A DNA stretch of 54,652 nt from a bacterium (lineage in GTDB: Bacteria > Elusimicrobiota > Elusimicrobia > UBA1565 > UBA9628). Positions within the stretch are counted from its first letter, which is position 1. Every line of letters starts with the position of its first letter. The DNA lies in the NCBI GenBank assembly GCA_021782205.1, contig JAJXVH010000014.1:1-54652 (forward strand), given 5' to 3'. Positions 2,126 to 10,068 of the stretch are shown here, piece by piece. The position numbers were made by a program, and so were the translations under genes. The notes beneath the pieces are model-generated. The model was not told where the DNA came from. It was given only the letters and a program-made list of their open reading frames with translations, and searched no databases.

Positions 2126-2177
2126 CCCGAGAAGGCGCGAATCCCGGATTATAACGTGTCGCGACAGCCGGCCGGTC

Positions 2178-2206
2178 TGGACATGGCCGGCGGCGCGCCC
2201 TATACT
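2178..2206 (+). promoter_or_regulatory. Promoter of the first insert gene
   Basis: TGGACA at 2178-2183, a 17-bp spacer and TATACT at 2201-2206. The start codon follows 8 nt after the -10 element, so the transcript is probably leaderless or nearly so. Confidence 0.6.
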
Positions 2207-2214
2207 TCGGCGGT

Positions 2215-3330
2215 ATGGCGGATGGGAAACAAGTCTCGTGCGCCGCGGCTCTCGCGTCGCTTTCTTTAATCGCCTCCACCGTCGGTGCCTCCTGGAGAGT
2301 CGAGAAACTCGAGCCTTCTCCCGCGTTTCCTGTGCGTCATGTCTGCGACGCAACGCGTTGGCACCAGGATATCGTTAAGGAGAGAGGCCTCGCGATCATC
2401 GATCCGCTCTGCGCCGACTTGCGCGGGGACGGGCGCGAGCGCATGTACGCATCGCTCAGCGAGGGTCCGGTCGTCGAGATGGAACTGATGCCGGACGGCC
2501 CGCGAACTTCCGAAACGCTGATCGACGAACCGAACCCGGGCCTCGCCTCCGCCCCCCTTTCCATTGCGCCATACAAGCCCGGCGCGAATCCATCGCTGTT
2601 CGTCGGCGGCGCGGAGCGCGTCAATATTTTGACTTGGAACGACGGGCGCTGGGAGCGGGAAAGTCTCCCGACCGGGGACGGCTCCGGCCTCAGCGGCATC
2701 GCCTTCGGCGACGCCCGCGGAGACGGTCGCGCCAGAATCTACACCGCGTTCGACGGAAGCCTCGCGGAATACTCGCCGACTCCCCTCGGCTGGCACCGCC
2801 AGGTATTTTCCCCCAGGCTCGGAATGATCCGCAGGCTGGCCATCGAAAAAGCCGCGGGGCGGTCCGCCACGGCCTTGCGGCTGGAGACCGACCACGGCGT
2901 TTACTCCCTGCGCTGGCGCAACGAAGGACGAGTCGCGGTCCTGGACTTCGATGCCCGCAACCGGTCGCCGGAAGAGGCAACAGGCTTCTCCGCTCTCCTC
3001 CGGACTCGACTCTTCCAGATCGGCAACTGCCGCGTCCTGGAACGCTCCGCCGTCGTTACCCTTCTGCGAGAGCGGGCCTTGCTGTCAGCAGGACTTCTCG
3101 ACCCCGCGTCGGCTTCCCGGGCCGCGACGCTCTTGGGCACCGACCGCATCATCATCGGTTCGCTCGGGCGCGAAGCCGAAAAAAATTTCGCCGACGTCCG
3201 CATCGTATCGTCTCGGACCGGGACGGCCTCCCGTTCCGAATACGTCGTCTGGAACAGCGACGCCGAGATGGAAAAGGCCGTCGAACTCCTCGCTCAGGCC
3301 GCATGTCCGGACACGAGCCGCCCCCCATGA
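2215..3330 (+). CDS. Exported protein with propeller-like N-terminus and C-terminal CsgG/FlgO-like domain
   Basis: A signal peptide spans about residues 1-26. The middle contains repeated blocks of the form ADLRGDGRERMYA and GDARGDGRARIYT, typical of FG-GAP/VCBS-like beta-propeller blades. From about residue 240 to the end the sequence fits the CsgG/FlgO/TolB-N-like fold: VAVLDFDA, then RVLERS, then a Leu-rich helix and LGTDRIIIGSLGR, ending with a description-like DVRIVSSRTG strand. Such domains occur in envelope-assembly lipoproteins; this protein has no lipobox. It overlaps the next gene by ATGA and lies inside the repeat-bounded insert. The function is unknown. Confidence 0.75.
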   Translation: MADGKQVSCAAALASLSLIASTVGASWRVEKLEPSPAFPVRHVCDATRWHQDIVKERGLAIIDPLCADLRGDGRERMYASLSEGPVVEMELMPDGPRTSETLIDEPNPGLASAPLSIAPYKPGANPSLFVGGAERVNILTWNDGRWERESLPTGDGSGLSGIAFGDARGDGRARIYTAFDGSLAEYSPTPLGWHRQVFSPRLGMIRRLAIEKAAGRSATALRLETDHGVYSLRWRNEGRVAVLDFDARNRSPEEATGFSALLRTRLFQIGNCRVLERSAVVTLLRERALLSAGLLDPASASRAATLLGTDRIIIGSLGREAEKNFADVRIVSSRTGTASRSEYVVWNSDAEMEKAVELLAQAACPDTSRPP

Positions 3331-5549
3331 ACCGGCTCTTGCGCGCGACGGCGTTGGTCTTCGCCGCTCTTATCTTGACATCCCGCGTACGCGCGGTATG
3401 GTCGCGTTCCATCATCGCCGAGTTTCCTCGGGGAGCTCAAGGCGCGAAGCTCCTGCGCTTGGCTGAGGGTCCGGCGATCGCCGTCTTTGAAAACCCGAAG
3501 ACTCTCGATCTGTTCCGTCGGCACGACGGTGATTGGACCCGCACCAGCGTTCCGCTCCCCTATGACGAGGCGACGGACATCGAATCCTGCGCCTGCCGGG
3601 GCGACGGCGTCGTGCGACTCTATGTGACCTACAGCGCCGACCCGCACGTGACAGAAATCACCCCCGGCCCCAAAGGCTGGGGAATGGAGGACTTCGAGCC
3701 CGACGGCGAGCGGCTGACTGGAGTCCGCCCCGCGTCGGCCTACACGGACGCAATCGCCTGGGCGATCTCCCACGTTGATCACCGTCCGAGCCTGTTCATC
3801 CGCCGGCGTTTGGTCCAGAAGATTTTCGAATGCCGCTGGAACGCCGGTTGGCGCTGCAGCCCCGCCGCCGAGACCGCCGCCTACGGCTTCTGGGGAGACC
3901 TGAGGGCTAACATCCACGCCTGGTCCGCGAATGACATGCTCCTTGACGGCGGCGTTTTGCAAAAGCGCGATCCCTCGGGCTGGGCGAAAGTCATCGATTT
4001 TCACAGCGCTGGAGCGGTTGCGTCGCGGAGCGTCTTGCGCCGTCTCTACGTCTTCTGGCAGAAGCACCAAGTGATCGACTTAGATTCGGAGCTCCTTCCC
4101 ATCCGCTCGATCCCGATGCTGGAGGACGAATGGGCACCAGTCAACGCCCGCGCTCCCAGAGACGAAAGTCGACCGGACGATCCTGTCGTGCAGCAGATCG
4201 CTGTCCGCCGCGCTTACGATGCCGCGGGAGCGCCGCGCGGCAAGCACGTCGAGACCCTGTTCGGAACGCTGGAGGATCATCAGATCCACGAACTGCGCTG
4301 GAGCGGCGGGCGCTGGAAGGACCAGATCGTTGCCGCGCTGTCCGGGGACAGCCAGAAACCGCTTGTCGGCGACGCGCGCGGCGACGGCCTTGACCGGGTT
4401 TACGCGCTTGTCGACGACCGGGAGGGTTCTGACCGCCGCACAACACTATGGGAACTGACCTATTATCCGCGCCGCGCCGTCGTCCTTGCGCCCGATCCCG
4501 ACTCCGCGTCCTTGGCGCCGGCGGACCGACACCTGCTCGGCGAAATGATGCGCGCGGAAATGGGGCGACACGGCCACCTCGCCATCGTCGACACGCGGAG
4601 CCGCGCCGTCGCCCGGGAGGAGCGCTCTCTGACGGAACAAGGCGCCGGAGGAAATGCCGTCCCCGACGCGGCCGTACGCTGCCGAATCGAGGAGAAAAAC
4701 GGTCTTTATATAGTCTCCGCGCAACTCTCAACGAACGGCACGGCAAGCGCAATGGAATTCAAGGCATCTCCCTCCGCGCGCGCCGAGCTGCCTCAAGCAG
4801 TACTGGCCCTGGCGCGGCAAGTGGCGGAAGATTGGCCGCAGAATCTCGCCGAAGGCGCGGGATCTCCGGCGACCGCGCGGGCCGCGCCCACAGATTCGGC
4901 ACCGTCGCCAAAGGCCGCCGCTACGGGAGACTGCGACGTTCTGGTCATCCGCTACAAAGCGGTATGGTCCGATCCAAGCGTGACCCGCGCGATCGACGTC
5001 GCTCTGAACAGCCACTCGCGCCAAGAACGGACCGACGCGAGCGTCACCTCGATGGCCGCGTTGGGAATTCCAAAGAACTCCGATGGCCTCGCTCAGGCTC
5101 GCCGTCTGATCGCGTCTTCCACGCCGTGGTGCCGATATTGGGGATACCAGATCATCTCCTATCTGGAACTGGCCGGCGTGCGCGACGCCAATTCCGAACG
5201 CGACCTTGTCCGCGGGCTCCAGGACCCCGATGCGTCGTCACGACGCGGCGTCGTGCTGGCCCTGGGTGCCTACACGGATGCGACGCTGCTCCCTTCGCTC
5301 TATCGCATTTTCTCCGCCGACCCCAGCCCGGACGTGCGCATGAGCGCGGCCATCTCCTTGTCGGGCTCGGGGCTCTACACCCCGGAACAGCGGAGACGGA
5401 TGCTGCCGATCTTTCTACGGGTGCTCAAAGACCCAAGCCAGGATCATCAGACCCGCGAATGGGCGGCACACGCCATGAGCGACATCACTGGACAGGGTTT
5501 CGGAATGGACGAAGTGCGCTGGCAGGCTTGGATCACCGCTCACCCCTAA
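3327..5549 (+). CDS. Exported propeller / CsgG-like / HEAT-repeat protein
   Basis: The start ATG overlaps the stop of the preceding gene, so the pair should be translationally coupled. The 740-residue product has a signal peptide (about residues 1-23), an N-terminal part with the same GDARGDGLDRVYA-type blade motif as its neighbour, and a degenerate CsgG/FlgO-like region at about 381-510 (VVLAPDPD, then AIVDTRSRAV). The C-terminal ~120 residues show HEAT-like repeats (LQDPDASSRRGVVLALGAY, then SPDVRMSAAISLSG). The two genes look like diverged paralogues, the second having gained the repeat tail. The function is unknown; a periplasmic scaffold or sensor is an inference only. Confidence 0.7.
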   Translation: MNRLLRATALVFAALILTSRVRAVWSRSIIAEFPRGAQGAKLLRLAEGPAIAVFENPKTLDLFRRHDGDWTRTSVPLPYDEATDIESCACRGDGVVRLYVTYSADPHVTEITPGPKGWGMEDFEPDGERLTGVRPASAYTDAIAWAISHVDHRPSLFIRRRLVQKIFECRWNAGWRCSPAAETAAYGFWGDLRANIHAWSANDMLLDGGVLQKRDPSGWAKVIDFHSAGAVASRSVLRRLYVFWQKHQVIDLDSELLPIRSIPMLEDEWAPVNARAPRDESRPDDPVVQQIAVRRAYDAAGAPRGKHVETLFGTLEDHQIHELRWSGGRWKDQIVAALSGDSQKPLVGDARGDGLDRVYALVDDREGSDRRTTLWELTYYPRRAVVLAPDPDSASLAPADRHLLGEMMRAEMGRHGHLAIVDTRSRAVAREERSLTEQGAGGNAVPDAAVRCRIEEKNGLYIVSAQLSTNGTASAMEFKASPSARAELPQAVLALARQVAEDWPQNLAEGAGSPATARAAPTDSAPSPKAAATGDCDVLVIRYKAVWSDPSVTRAIDVALNSHSRQERTDASVTSMAALGIPKNSDGLAQARRLIASSTPWCRYWGYQIISYLELAGVRDANSERDLVRGLQDPDASSRRGVVLALGAYTDATLLPSLYRIFSADPSPDVRMSAAISLSGSGLYTPEQRRRMLPIFLRVLKDPSQDHQTREWAAHAMSDITGQGFGMDEVRWQAWITAHP

Positions 5550-5552
5550 GAC

Positions 5553-8471
5553 TCATTCCTTGTCGTAGCGGCGGTCCAGCGAGGCGATGTGAAGCCCGGC
5601 CCCGTCGGGTCCGTCCGCGAGAACAAAAGCCCGGTGGCCGACCATCAGCACGCTTTTGCCGGTAAAGTGCTCCGGATAACGCACGGTGCCCACGACGAAC
5701 GGCACGCGCGGCTGCGAGATATCGACGATCATCAATGAGTCGTTTCCGGAGGCGCTGGCCCCCGTGATGAGCAACCAATCCTTGTTGATCGACATTCCCC
5801 TCGGAAGCAGTTCGATGCCCGCACCGAGTCGCGGCGAGAACCGTTGGACTTCGACGGGATTGTCGACATCGATAATTCCCACGTAAGGATGGTCGGCGCC
5901 GTCGATCGCCGCGAAAACGCGATGCCCGCTGGCGGCGATGCCCGCGGCGCGGCCGGGAAGGGTGATCGTCTTGATTTGATGCGGTCGCGAAGAGACGGAC
6001 ACATCGAACACAGACAACGATGCGCCGGCCGTCTCGAACGCGCGTCCGCCGGAAATCACCAACGCCGCTATTCCCCGCGAGGATCCGCGAGTTCGCCCAA
6101 GCCGTTTTAGCGAACGCGCATCATAGATCTCCAGCCTATTATTGACGGCAACATAAAGCAGTCCCTCATGAGCGACGGCGCTTTTGATGCCCGACACGCT
6201 CAAGGATTCCAAATGCCGCGGCTGCGGAATCGTTTTGTCAATTTCATACGAATCGACGCCTCGATCGCCGATGACATCCAGCGTCGCGCCGGTGATCGCG
6301 ATCTCCACGACGCTCCCGCGCGTCGGATACGCCGCGACAATCTCCGGAGCCGCTTCTTTCTTCAACACCGCGAGATACCAGCCTTTCAGCCCGGCCGCAA
6401 CGTAGGCGAAGCGACCGTCGGCGCTCACCGCGACGTCCTTGTAACCGCGGCCCAGAAGCGGCGGCAAAGGCGTCGGAGAAAATCGATTCACACGGAACGT
6501 CGCCTGCGCCCTAATTCCGTGGTTGGAAACACGAATCGTCGCGGATCCCGTCTCGACGGCCAGGACGACGCCATCTTTTGTGACCGGGACCGCCTTCGGA
6601 TCGCTGGATTCATATCGCGTGCCCAAATCGGGAAGAGCGATGTCGCCGGTCGACCCATCGGAGAAATGTCCGATGACGCGCAGACGCAGCGTGGTGACTG
6701 CGGGCAATCCCGTGGACTGCACCGCGGGCACTCGGGTGATCTTGCCCGAATTCGGCACAATCTCCATGGATTTAAGACGCGCCGGCCGGGACTGGATCAC
6801 GACGCTCGCAATAAGCGCGCCGTTCTCCGCCGTAATCACGGCCGTTCCGGGGCCGTGCGCTTGCGCGACGCCCTCTCGAGACACGGAAATGACGGAAGGA
6901 GCGGAACTCCGATACCGAGTGCCTGTGATTGAGGAGGTGAGATTTGACGTCTGTCCGGAACCGGCCGTTCCCGTCACAAAGAGAGCGATCTTATCTCCGG
7001 GCTGACGGAGCACCGGACCTTCCGGCCCGATGGCGAGGCGATTCATCGCGTTCGCGGGTCTGATGTCGACGGTCACCGTCATCGTGGCCGTCATCTGTTG
7101 ATAGCGAGCCCGCAGAACCGTGCTTCCGGAGGCGAGCGCATACAGCAATCCCGTCGGACCTAGCGCCGCGACGCTCGTCTGATCGACCGAGAACTGCATG
7201 TCTTTATACCCCGTGATTTCTCCTTTGTTGCCGTTGCTGAATTGACCTTCCACCCGGGGGCGGGAATTGTCGCCTTTGAACCGAAAATAAATCGGCCCCT
7301 GCAAGCGCATGGACCGCAATTCGGAGCCCAAATTGACCTGGACGAAGCAGTTGTAGATTTGACCCCAGCCGATGATCTTGACCATCGTTAAGCCGTTTCC
7401 CCGTGCCTGGACTACGCCGCTCGGATCGACGCCCGCGACGCCAGGGTGGTCCGCCGAATAGCTCAACCCCATGTCCGAACCGCTCACGTCCCATCCGCCG
7501 ATGTAGCGACCGGAAGCATAGGTAAGGTTTGTCACATGGAGGGCTTGCCTCTCGCCCACGCGAGAGAATTCAAGCAGCTGGGAACTCGAGAAAAGTGACT
7601 GGAAGGCCGTTGCCTCCGGCAGCCCCCAATTCACGCTGCCGCCGGGCAATGACTCCACGCCCTCCGATACCGAACCCGGCGGCGCGGACCATGCTATGGA
7701 TTGACGGTACTCCTCGGCGCCCGCGGACGGCGGCGGACGCCTCGTCACCGTCGGCCTTACGACGCGGGGCTCACGCGCGGCCGCCGCGGACGCCGCGCCC
7801 GCCTTCTGCACCAGAAGCACGTGCGTCCACTCATAGCCTTGGGTCCGTCGCAGCACGTCGGCCCGCGGCGCAAGTTCCCTCAGGCGGTCCTCGGCGACGC
7901 GGCGCTCGACCGGATCCATGCGGTCTGCGGAATTCGCCGACAACTCTCGCTTCAAACGTTCGAATTCAGCCAGATCGGCCGGGGCGATGCCGTGGAACGG
8001 TCCCAGAGAGCCGTCACGCTTCTGATACCCGATCTCATCGTCGACCTGGGGCGAACCCAGCGCGAACAGGTCGCGGCGAAAAGCCGCGCGGCCAGTCTCT
8101 GGAACCCAAAGGCTCTGCCCGTAGGTCAGAGTGGCATCGACGATTCCGGGGTCCCAGCGCGCGGTCACGTCGCAGCCCGGGGTGAGGTCCGACGCGCCGG
8201 CGGCCGCGAACGCCGCGGCAAGCCCGTGCTGCGCGACGGAAAGATCGGCGACCGCGATCTGATAGAAACGCGGCTCGATCGCGGGCCGACAGCCTTCGCG
8301 GTCATAAACGAAGGTGAAGTAGCCGCCCGGTTTCAACGGCGGTCGCGGACGCTGCACGCCCTCGGCCGCCGAGGCCGAGAGCGCCGCCAGCACCAGCGCC
8401 GCTCCCGCAAGCGCGGCCGGGCGGAGCGTCGCGTGCGGGCTTCTTTCCGAGCCGCGGGCGGATTGCCTCAT
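5553..8471 (-). CDS. Large secreted protein with bacterial Ig-like domains and a C-terminal beta-propeller
   Basis: The 972-residue product starts at the ATG at 8471, 7 nt after the caspase-like gene's stop, with an N-terminal signal peptide. Residues ~40-300 match nothing I recognise. Residues ~335-664 hold about four BIG2-type Ig-like units, each with the SSDPKAVPVTKDGVV / GTAVITAENG pattern. Residues ~670-972 form a propeller with LVIVD-type repeats (SLMIVDISQPRVPFVVGTV; VGIIDVDNPVEVQRF). These folds are usual in surface adhesion or display. It is probably co-transcribed with the upstream caspase-like lipoprotein. Its stop lies 3 nt from that of the converging gene pair. Confidence 0.75.
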   Translation of the reverse strand: MRQSARGSERSPHATLRPAALAGAALVLAALSASAAEGVQRPRPPLKPGGYFTFVYDREGCRPAIEPRFYQIAVADLSVAQHGLAAAFAAAGASDLTPGCDVTARWDPGIVDATLTYGQSLWVPETGRAAFRRDLFALGSPQVDDEIGYQKRDGSLGPFHGIAPADLAEFERLKRELSANSADRMDPVERRVAEDRLRELAPRADVLRRTQGYEWTHVLLVQKAGAASAAAAREPRVVRPTVTRRPPPSAGAEEYRQSIAWSAPPGSVSEGVESLPGGSVNWGLPEATAFQSLFSSSQLLEFSRVGERQALHVTNLTYASGRYIGGWDVSGSDMGLSYSADHPGVAGVDPSGVVQARGNGLTMVKIIGWGQIYNCFVQVNLGSELRSMRLQGPIYFRFKGDNSRPRVEGQFSNGNKGEITGYKDMQFSVDQTSVAALGPTGLLYALASGSTVLRARYQQMTATMTVTVDIRPANAMNRLAIGPEGPVLRQPGDKIALFVTGTAGSGQTSNLTSSITGTRYRSSAPSVISVSREGVAQAHGPGTAVITAENGALIASVVIQSRPARLKSMEIVPNSGKITRVPAVQSTGLPAVTTLRLRVIGHFSDGSTGDIALPDLGTRYESSDPKAVPVTKDGVVLAVETGSATIRVSNHGIRAQATFRVNRFSPTPLPPLLGRGYKDVAVSADGRFAYVAAGLKGWYLAVLKKEAAPEIVAAYPTRGSVVEIAITGATLDVIGDRGVDSYEIDKTIPQPRHLESLSVSGIKSAVAHEGLLYVAVNNRLEIYDARSLKRLGRTRGSSRGIAALVISGGRAFETAGASLSVFDVSVSSRPHQIKTITLPGRAAGIAASGHRVFAAIDGADHPYVGIIDVDNPVEVQRFSPRLGAGIELLPRGMSINKDWLLITGASASGNDSLMIVDISQPRVPFVVGTVRYPEHFTGKSVLMVGHRAFVLADGPDGAGLHIASLDRRYDKE

Positions 8472-8478
8472 CGCGACG

Positions 8479-9855
8479 TCAGCGCGCAAGCAGCCCCTCC
8501 CCGCTGCCCGAAAATTGCGGAACCTGATCGCGACCGTACTTCTTCGCCGCCAGGACCGAAACCTCCGCCGCCACGTGGCGCTCCAGCGCCGGCCAGGAGG
8601 ACGGCGCCGTGGATCTTCGCGCGAGCTCACGAACGAGGAAATAGGTGAAAAGTGAGTGGCCTTTTTCCGGATACCACGAGGCGATCTGGCCGCCGCCCGC
8701 GGCCGTGATCAGGCTCACGCCCTGAGGGACGTCTGCCTTCGCCGCGCGCAGGACCAGCGGGCTGGCGTCGTGGATCAGGGCCCCTCCTCCACTTCCCCCG
8801 GAAAAGCAGGACTCGAGGACCACGGTCGCCCGGCGCGCACCCAGCTTCGAGAGATTCGTCAGAAGGACATCGCGAGGGTAGCCGTTGAGCTCGACGTAAT
8901 CTGGATTGGCGTCCGACGGAACCAAATAGGAGCGGCCGGTCTTCACGCTGGGCGCTCCATGGCCGGAGTAGTAGACGAAGACCTCCGCGGAACCGCGCGT
9001 TCGAAGACTCAGCAGACGCGACAGACGGCCGTGAGGATCACCCGGCCCGCCGAAAACGGTCTCCAACTCCGCCTTGGTCGGATCCTCGAGCTCGAGGACG
9101 TTTTCCTCGCGATAACCGAGCGAGCGCGTCAGATAAAGCTTCATGAGCCGCGCGTCCACGCGGGCGAACTCCGCGCGGGGAACGTCCTTATTTTTGTAGT
9201 CGCGCACGGAAATCACGACCCCAAAGGCGTCTGGCCTGACTCTCCGCGTCGTCGGCAGGCTGTCCGCAAGCGCGTCACGCCTGGACGGCACGGCACCGGT
9301 CGGGGCCCTCGCGCCTGCCGGCGCGGCGAGCGCGTCTCGGATCGCCGCCCGCGCCATCGCGTCAAGTTCTCCGGGCTGCGAGCCCCGCTCGACGACGGCA
9401 TTGATGATCTCGCCCGTCTCGACGCGCACGACGCGCGCCGTGAGGATGTAGCCCTCGCCCAGCTTGGAAAAACTTCCGAACGCCATCAAGCTTGCTCCCA
9501 AAAGACGGCCGACGCGGACCGCCGCCTCCTGGTCGACGATCTCGGCTTGGCCGACACGGAGCTCCTTGACCACCTCCTCGATTCGGGCGCGCTCCACAAG
9601 CCTCAGGTCGGAGCGCCCGGCGAGTTCGACGGACATTATCTCGGCCAACGTCCCGCCGAGGCCACGGAAGTCCGCATCGCCGGTGTTGTTGTTCAGCGGC
9701 AGTATCGCGATCGTCGCTGCGCCGCGCCGCGGAGCCGGCGCGGCCGCGGGCGCGGGGGAGTCAAATACGGGAGCTGCCGCGACGGAAACAGGACGGCGAG
9801 CGGCGCACCCGGCCGTCGCCAGCGCCGCGCACAGCGCGAAGATCGAGGCCTTCAC
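8479..9855 (-). CDS. Lipoprotein fusing a CsgG/FlgO-like domain to a caspase-like (C14) peptidase
   Basis: The GTG at 9855 is preferred because it gives a short Lys-then-hydrophobic lipoprotein signal ending ATAGC and sits after an AGGGG stretch; a TTG at 9870 is the alternative. Residues ~48-175 form a CsgG/FlgO-like domain (IAILPLNNNTGD, RLVERARIEEV, LLGASLMAFGSF). Residues ~205-458 are caspase-like: His299 in VYYSGHGAP and Cys350 in VLESCFSGG give the His-Cys dyad at a spacing normal for the family. The active site appears intact, so an active protease anchored to an envelope membrane is expected. Substrate and trigger are unknown. It heads a two-gene unit with the Ig-like protein. Confidence 0.82.
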   Translation of the reverse strand: MKASIFALCAALATAGCAARRPVSVAAAPVFDSPAPAAAPAPRRGAATIAILPLNNNTGDADFRGLGGTLAEIMSVELAGRSDLRLVERARIEEVVKELRVGQAEIVDQEAAVRVGRLLGASLMAFGSFSKLGEGYILTARVVRVETGEIINAVVERGSQPGELDAMARAAIRDALAAPAGARAPTGAVPSRRDALADSLPTTRRVRPDAFGVVISVRDYKNKDVPRAEFARVDARLMKLYLTRSLGYREENVLELEDPTKAELETVFGGPGDPHGRLSRLLSLRTRGSAEVFVYYSGHGAPSVKTGRSYLVPSDANPDYVELNGYPRDVLLTNLSKLGARRATVVLESCFSGGSGGGALIHDASPLVLRAAKADVPQGVSLITAAGGGQIASWYPEKGHSLFTYFLVRELARRSTAPSSWPALERHVAAEVSVLAAKKYGRDQVPQFSGSGEGLLAR

Positions 9856-9906
9856 GATCCCCTGCCCCAAACAGTCGGAGCGATTTGACGGGTACCCATG
9901 ACGTTG

Positions 9907-9935
9907 AGCGTAGCCCGCACGATGCCAAAGCGCAA
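9907..9935 (-). promoter_or_regulatory. Candidate promoter of the caspase-like gene
   Basis: On the minus strand, TTGCGC (9930-9935), a 17-bp spacer and TACGCT (9907-9912). The leader to the GTG would be about 45 nt. Both hexamers are weak, so this is tentative. Confidence 0.35.
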
Positions 9936-9955
9936 GGTCGGAACGTCTCTAGGAT

Positions 9956-10009
9956 CTACCTCGTCAGTGCCGCGGCCAACGCGACAACGAGAAAAAGAAG
10001 GGGCTTCAT
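9956..10009 (-). pseudogene. Truncated duplicate of the HtrA-like gene 5' end
   Basis: ATG plus 16 codons and a TAG. The first 14 residues (MKPLLFLVVALAAA) equal the protease signal peptide, then the frame runs into insert sequence (LTR, stop). The nearby 12-bp difference between the two copies can be explained by loss of one unit between short gccgcgg repeats. Confidence 0.8.
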
Positions 10010-10068
10010 GACGCGATTTTATATCATTGCCCCGTGACTTCGCCGCTGCCGCGCTTCCAGCCCGAGAA
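9969..10068. repeat. 100-bp direct repeat, right copy
   Basis: Matches 2034-2133 at 98 of 100 positions. This copy retains the functional start of the methyltransferase gene and a truncated start of the protease gene, the mirror image of the left copy. Similarity stops at 10069. Confidence 0.95.
10022..10027 (+). promoter_or_regulatory. -10 element of the methyltransferase gene
   Basis: TATCAT, 6 nt before the GTG start at 10034. It overlaps on the other strand the -10 of the protease remnant, so the two divergent leaderless promoters originally shared about 24 bp. Confidence 0.45.

Follow-up and report, generated by a model that had tools for sequence, protein, structure and literature searches.

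We analysed a DNA window of 54,652 nucleotides, which is the whole of one contig (C160) of a 3.09-Mb genome. Four genes, here called A to D, lie in a cassette inserted between htrA and a methyltransferase gene near the start of the window. The features of the cassette and its borders are as follows.

2034-2133, no strand: direct repeat, left copy; 100 bp with 98% identity to 9969-10068, present as a single copy in the relative G165
2134-9968, no strand: inserted segment (cassette) between htrA and the methyltransferase gene; empty site in relatives, low GC3
2215-3330, plus strand: gene A; 371 aa with a signal peptide, FG-GAP/propeller-like repeats and a CsgG-like domain
2956-3165, plus strand: CsgG-like domain of A (Pfam search, whole genome)
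3327-5549, plus strand: gene B; 740 aa with a signal peptide, a 7-bladed propeller, a CsgG-like domain and HEAT repeats
3384-4478, plus strand: 7-bladed beta-propeller of B, aa 20-384 (AlphaFold2 model against the PDB)
4467-4871, plus strand: degenerate CsgG-like domain of B (hhalign against a CsgG-domain alignment)
5166-5363, plus strand: HEAT repeats of B (Pfam HEAT_2, 1.1e-10), missing from both homologues
5553-8471, minus strand: gene C; 972 aa with a signal peptide, a novel N-terminal domain, Ig-like domains and a probable C-terminal propeller
7689-8471, minus strand: N-terminal domain of C, common to a stand-alone protein beside a B homologue in the genome G180
8479-9855, minus strand: gene D; GTG start, 458 aa, lipoprotein with CsgG/LpoB-like and C14 caspase domains
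8506-9219, minus strand: caspase (peptidase C14) domain of D, His at about 8959-8961 and Cys at about 8806-8808
9457-9726, minus strand: CsgG/LpoB-like domain of D (Pfam and PDB profile searches)
9969-10068, no strand: direct repeat, right copy; 100 bp, pairs with the left copy at 2034-2133

A preliminary description of this DNA had placed four genes in two converging pairs, with the large Ig-like protein co-directional with the protease, and this arrangement was borne out. A to B and D to C form two tight convergent pairs, in which the A and B frames share ATGA, 7 bases separate the stop of D from the start of C on the same strand, and 3 bases lie between the stop codons of B and C. Each of the four genes is intact and has a coding-type codon-position GC pattern. 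Their GC3 was 0.74-0.79, whereas that of the 15 other genes in the window was 0.904 (SD 0.036, minimum 0.85). Export signals were recognised in the sequences of all four proteins, supporting the common export that had been proposed for them.

The 100-bp repeats at the borders each contain the start of htrA, a short intergenic stretch and the start of the methyltransferase gene. The empty site, at which htrA lies directly beside the methyltransferase gene, was found in 11 of the 12 other genomes of the same genus examined, and the same adjacency without an insert was also present in five further genomes that belong to the family but to other genera. The two repeat copies at the cassette differ from each other at two positions and from the single copy in the closest relative (G165) at about a tenth of positions; the insertion is therefore probably younger than the split from G165. 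The repeat, the empty site in relatives and the drop in GC3 support the earlier proposal of an inserted segment whose genes moved jointly and, judged from the sequence, the cassette is a recent insertion and a horizontally acquired block. Note that the 100-bp target duplication leaves htrA and the methyltransferase gene each with its own start region. A chimeric assembly was also considered; the two slightly diverged 100-bp copies, the intact flanks and the operonic genes argue for a true insertion. Neither a recombinase nor a transposase was seen at the insertion, nor were terminal inverted repeats. In G180, related genes lie elsewhere (C63) and the htrA site is empty, indicating that this site is not a fixed one. 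Similar flanking repeats were not found at the related loci of G180 and of a further genome, G089.

CsgG/FlgO-like regions had been noticed in three of the proteins, and all three passed CsgG profiles, A and D by Pfam and B by profile-profile comparison. The match of A to Pfam CsgG was above the cut-off (E 4.6e-7), and a whole-genome Pfam search gave only four CsgG matches in the window genome, two of which are in the cassette. Pfam gave no CsgG match in B, whose CsgG-like domain is degenerate and was detected by profile-profile comparison only, residues about 400-503 matching the CsgG-domain profile (hhalign P 86.6, E 4.4e-6). The B homologue in G089 scored 20.0 against the Pfam CsgG cut-off of 20.8. 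FlgO gave no Pfam match for A to D at E ≤ 10, a search from which weak matches may be filtered out. The AlphaFold2 model of B had a whole-model pLDDT of 59, was best in the propeller and was used for that part. Residues 20-384 of the model matched 7-bladed propellers with Z up to 22 (VIA, model against the PDB); these fill the list of the fold search, from which CsgG is absent. The middle domain of the model has the order helix-helix-strand-strand-strand-helix. Propeller-like N-termini had been assigned to two proteins; that of B is confident, and the FG-GAP_3 match of A (6e-5) falls just below the Pfam cut-off. The HEAT repeats reported for one protein were recovered in B. A and B are related to each other (profile comparison, E 3.6e-7), both having a propeller and a CsgG-like domain.

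D carries a lipoprotein signal (ATAGC), a Pfam CsgG match above the cut-off (1e-5) and a Pfam C14 match of 3.2e-11 (43.8 bits against a cut-off of 21.4). Its His/Cys dyad is intact, since SGHG and ESCFSG align with homologues, and the lipoprotein with an intact caspase-like active site described earlier is thus confirmed at the level of sequence. D is predicted to be a protease anchored in the membrane and is related to the caspases that act in programmed cell death. In PDB profile searches, the best solved relative of its CsgG-type domain was CsgG (4.7e-5), with LpoB at 4.6e-4. However, this domain of about 130 aa aligns with LpoB in one piece and with CsgG in two, and it covers positions 7-102 of the 210 in the Pfam CsgG profile, that is, the first half only. 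The stretch at which the alignment with CsgG splits carries a membrane hairpin in the CsgG structure. The split and the half-profile match make a pore unlikely and argue for an LpoB-like soluble domain. The N-terminus of D is part of a wider family of stand-alone lipoproteins; its best six relatives are all short lipoproteins without a caspase, five of which adjoin another CsgG/FlgO-type gene. Elsewhere in the phylum, the nearest relatives of the caspase half carry WD40, TIG or other N-termini, so that D most likely arose by fusion of two parts that are otherwise separate.

C had been described as an Ig-like and propeller protein. The Ig part stands, with matches to Big_2 in Pfam (3e-6) and to a phage Ig-domain family (1.6e-11). 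On the other hand, LVIVD was below the cut-off (0.067), so that the propeller at the C-terminus is probable rather than proven. The N-terminal domain resembles the G180 protein (BLAST 2.6e-12, 28% over 195 aa) and was found in 2 of 295 genomes only, namely the window genome and G180. A resemblance of this domain to DUF4349, seen by eye, was dropped because Pfam DUF4349 had no match in the window genome. The AlphaFold2 model of C (pLDDT 34) was unusable and was set aside.

The preliminary description had proposed that the four genes work together as one system, and a gene-neighbourhood survey of the 295 genomes of the phylum gave partial co-occurrence: parts of the set recur in two genomes, and the complete A-D set was seen once. 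The B family occurs in three genomes (the window genome, G180 and G089), and the only clear full relative of A is in G089 (E 6.6e-28). The G089 locus (L064) has homologues of A and B, in this order, and a convergent gene for a CsgG lipoprotein that resembles the N-terminus of D and has no caspase (weak FlgO match, 0.03); the contig stops about 500 bases beyond this gene. This combination of A, B and a CsgG lipoprotein belongs to a family other than that of the window genome. In G180 (L103), the gene of the C-domain protein comes directly after a B homologue, which it overlaps by ATGA. Each rare family thus lies beside another of the set, which makes chance adjacency unlikely. The HEAT repeats of B, the Ig/propeller part of C and the caspase of D are specific to the window copy among the loci found, and, since the caspase has no counterpart in G089 and G180, the core can exist without it. 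A scan of 84,980 species, which extended the search beyond the phylum, returned only the two related loci already known, viral contigs and plasmids gave no relatives of the cassette, and no described CsgG-caspase system was found in the literature. Across the collections covered, the combination and its two unnamed families (those of A/B and of the N-terminal domain of C) are rare and come from Elusimicrobiota only. The cassette is probably a real but rare, undescribed system, for which the recurring combinations speak; within the 295 genomes, only the window genome had the complete set, the fusion to a caspase and the Ig/propeller part of C.

As for the function of this system, we tentatively favour an envelope complex built on LpoB/CsgG-type contacts, in which a caspase has been grafted onto lipoprotein D and would be activated by clustering. 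A, B and D would associate with one another by way of the CsgG/LpoB-type domains, on the periplasmic side of the outer membrane, and the propellers of A and B and the Ig/propeller part of C would bind a ligand or a surface partner. Such binding would then cluster D, the caspase domains would become active by proximity, and the activated caspase would cleave an envelope protein, for which C, encoded in the same operon, is the first candidate. Exported caspases are grafted phylum-wide onto varied N-terminal modules, including WD40, Kelch, ankyrin, TIG and lipoprotein domains. The reading of the cassette as a sensor-protease module, offered in the preliminary description, is a reasonable inference. 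A broader claim, that the cassette represents a class of envelope signalling module not described before, with a caspase coupled to an outer-membrane CsgG/LpoB-type assembly, triggered by surface signals and spread horizontally among Elusimicrobiota, appears unlikely at present. The cassette is a new combination of known kinds of domain with two unnamed families.

Known systems resemble the cassette in parts. The N-terminus of D matches both LpoB, the peptidoglycan synthase activator, and CsgG, the curli channel, and D has a lipoprotein signal. Unlike CsgG, however, its domain appears to have no room for the membrane hairpins and is fused to a caspase, and the partners in the cassette are propeller proteins, not a penicillin-binding protein or CsgE/F. 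No Pfam domain of the curli partners CsgA/B/E/F was present in A, B or C. D also matches the EACC1-associated C14 caspases (NCBIfam NF047832) over residues 218 to 420 (E 3.1e-16, dyad intact), but its score of 59.5 against the cut-off of 140 bits means that it is not a member by this model; moreover, D is an exported lipoprotein, and no EACC1 or NTPase partner gene was seen. The sortase PorU belongs to a caspase-like clan. An envelope propeller protein works with this surface cysteine peptidase (PMC5121618), and the likeness of the cassette to PorU and the Type IX secretion system is one of analogy only, with no sequence match, D being C14 and not C25. The NCBIfam scan reported no T9SS C-terminal sorting domain in C. 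On genomic islands of Neisseria, the CsgG-likened lipoprotein MafA is encoded with the protein that it serves, MafB (PMC7738311). The cassette is comparable in that a CsgG-type lipoprotein is encoded on a mobile segment together with a protein that it may serve; no toxin or immunity gene was seen here.

The main rival to the envelope complex is a passive mosaic, in which four accessory envelope genes were carried together by chance and do no joint work, D being one more member of an expansion of exported caspases. This is quite possible, given that the window genome has nine C14 matches, that D-type caspases occur in 89 of 295 genomes, that CsgG-type proteins are likewise common in the phylum, and that the complete set was seen once. 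Several points bear against chance. The B family is rare (3 of 295 genomes), as is the C-domain family (2 of 295), and wherever the C domain occurs it lies next to B, in one of the two genomes with the ATGA overlap. Moreover, A, B and a CsgG lipoprotein come together again in another family, and A/B and D/C are tight operons. Roles in cell death or secretion are less supported. Known bacterial defence systems include C14 proteases, D matches the PADLOC caspase model (E 1.7e-4), the cassette is mobile, and the Ig domain of C resembles those of phage structural proteins; all would suit an effector of cell killing or lysis that is set off when the envelope senses a phage or a neighbour. Such a module is nevertheless quite unlikely, because all four proteins carry export signals, unlike the known caspase defence effectors, which to our knowledge are cytoplasmic, because no gasdermin, nucleotide sensor or defence neighbour was seen, and because PADLOC, beyond the weak caspase match of D, had no match for A, B or C. 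We consider it equally unlikely that D, with A/B, is an outer-membrane channel that exports C and that the caspase processes the exported protein, on the model of CsgG exporting curli or of MafA/MafB as proposed. CsgG as the best solved relative of D, the adhesin-type Ig-like domains of C and the service of a lipoprotein to a co-encoded secreted protein on the Neisseria islands would fit such a unit, but the features that speak against a pore in D, namely the short domain, the split at the hairpin stretch and the half-profile match, weigh against it.

The best-known bacterial caspases are cytoplasmic. Exported ones are numerous in this phylum. The cassette, in which a caspase is tied on a mobile element to a recurrent pair with a CsgG/LpoB-type lipoprotein, offers a concrete candidate for a caspase at work in the cell envelope and, if the broader claim above is true, for extracytoplasmic caspase signalling in bacteria. 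It also provides two unnamed families to follow, the A/B propeller-CsgG proteins and the N-terminal domain of C. A survey of 2012 reported no caspases from the Elusimicrobia genomes then available (PMC3501461).

Several further observations were made on caspases and CsgG-type genes of the phylum. The nine C14 matches in the window genome (G000, 3.1 Mb; loci L065-L072) have ankyrin, Kelch, cytochrome-like and other N-termini. Three genomes of the family have a gene with a caspase domain within a bacterial-microcompartment locus, flanked on either side by BMC and EutN shell genes, at the following positions.

7297-8697 of L113: microcompartment caspase gene
7007-8422 of L115: microcompartment caspase gene
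5450-6793 of L072 (window genome, C18): microcompartment caspase gene; His/Cys dyad apparently lost

Exported caspase genes often form adjacent pairs (L114, L117, L118 and L130). In the L117 pair (5875-7254 and 7233-8699), the catalytic Cys is replaced by Gly in one member, which suggests a pair of one active and one inactive protein. In addition, short CsgG/LpoB-type lipoprotein genes lie beside CsgG/FlgO-type genes in distant families of the phylum (L144, L145, L147 and L148), and the two may constitute an undescribed two-gene unit.
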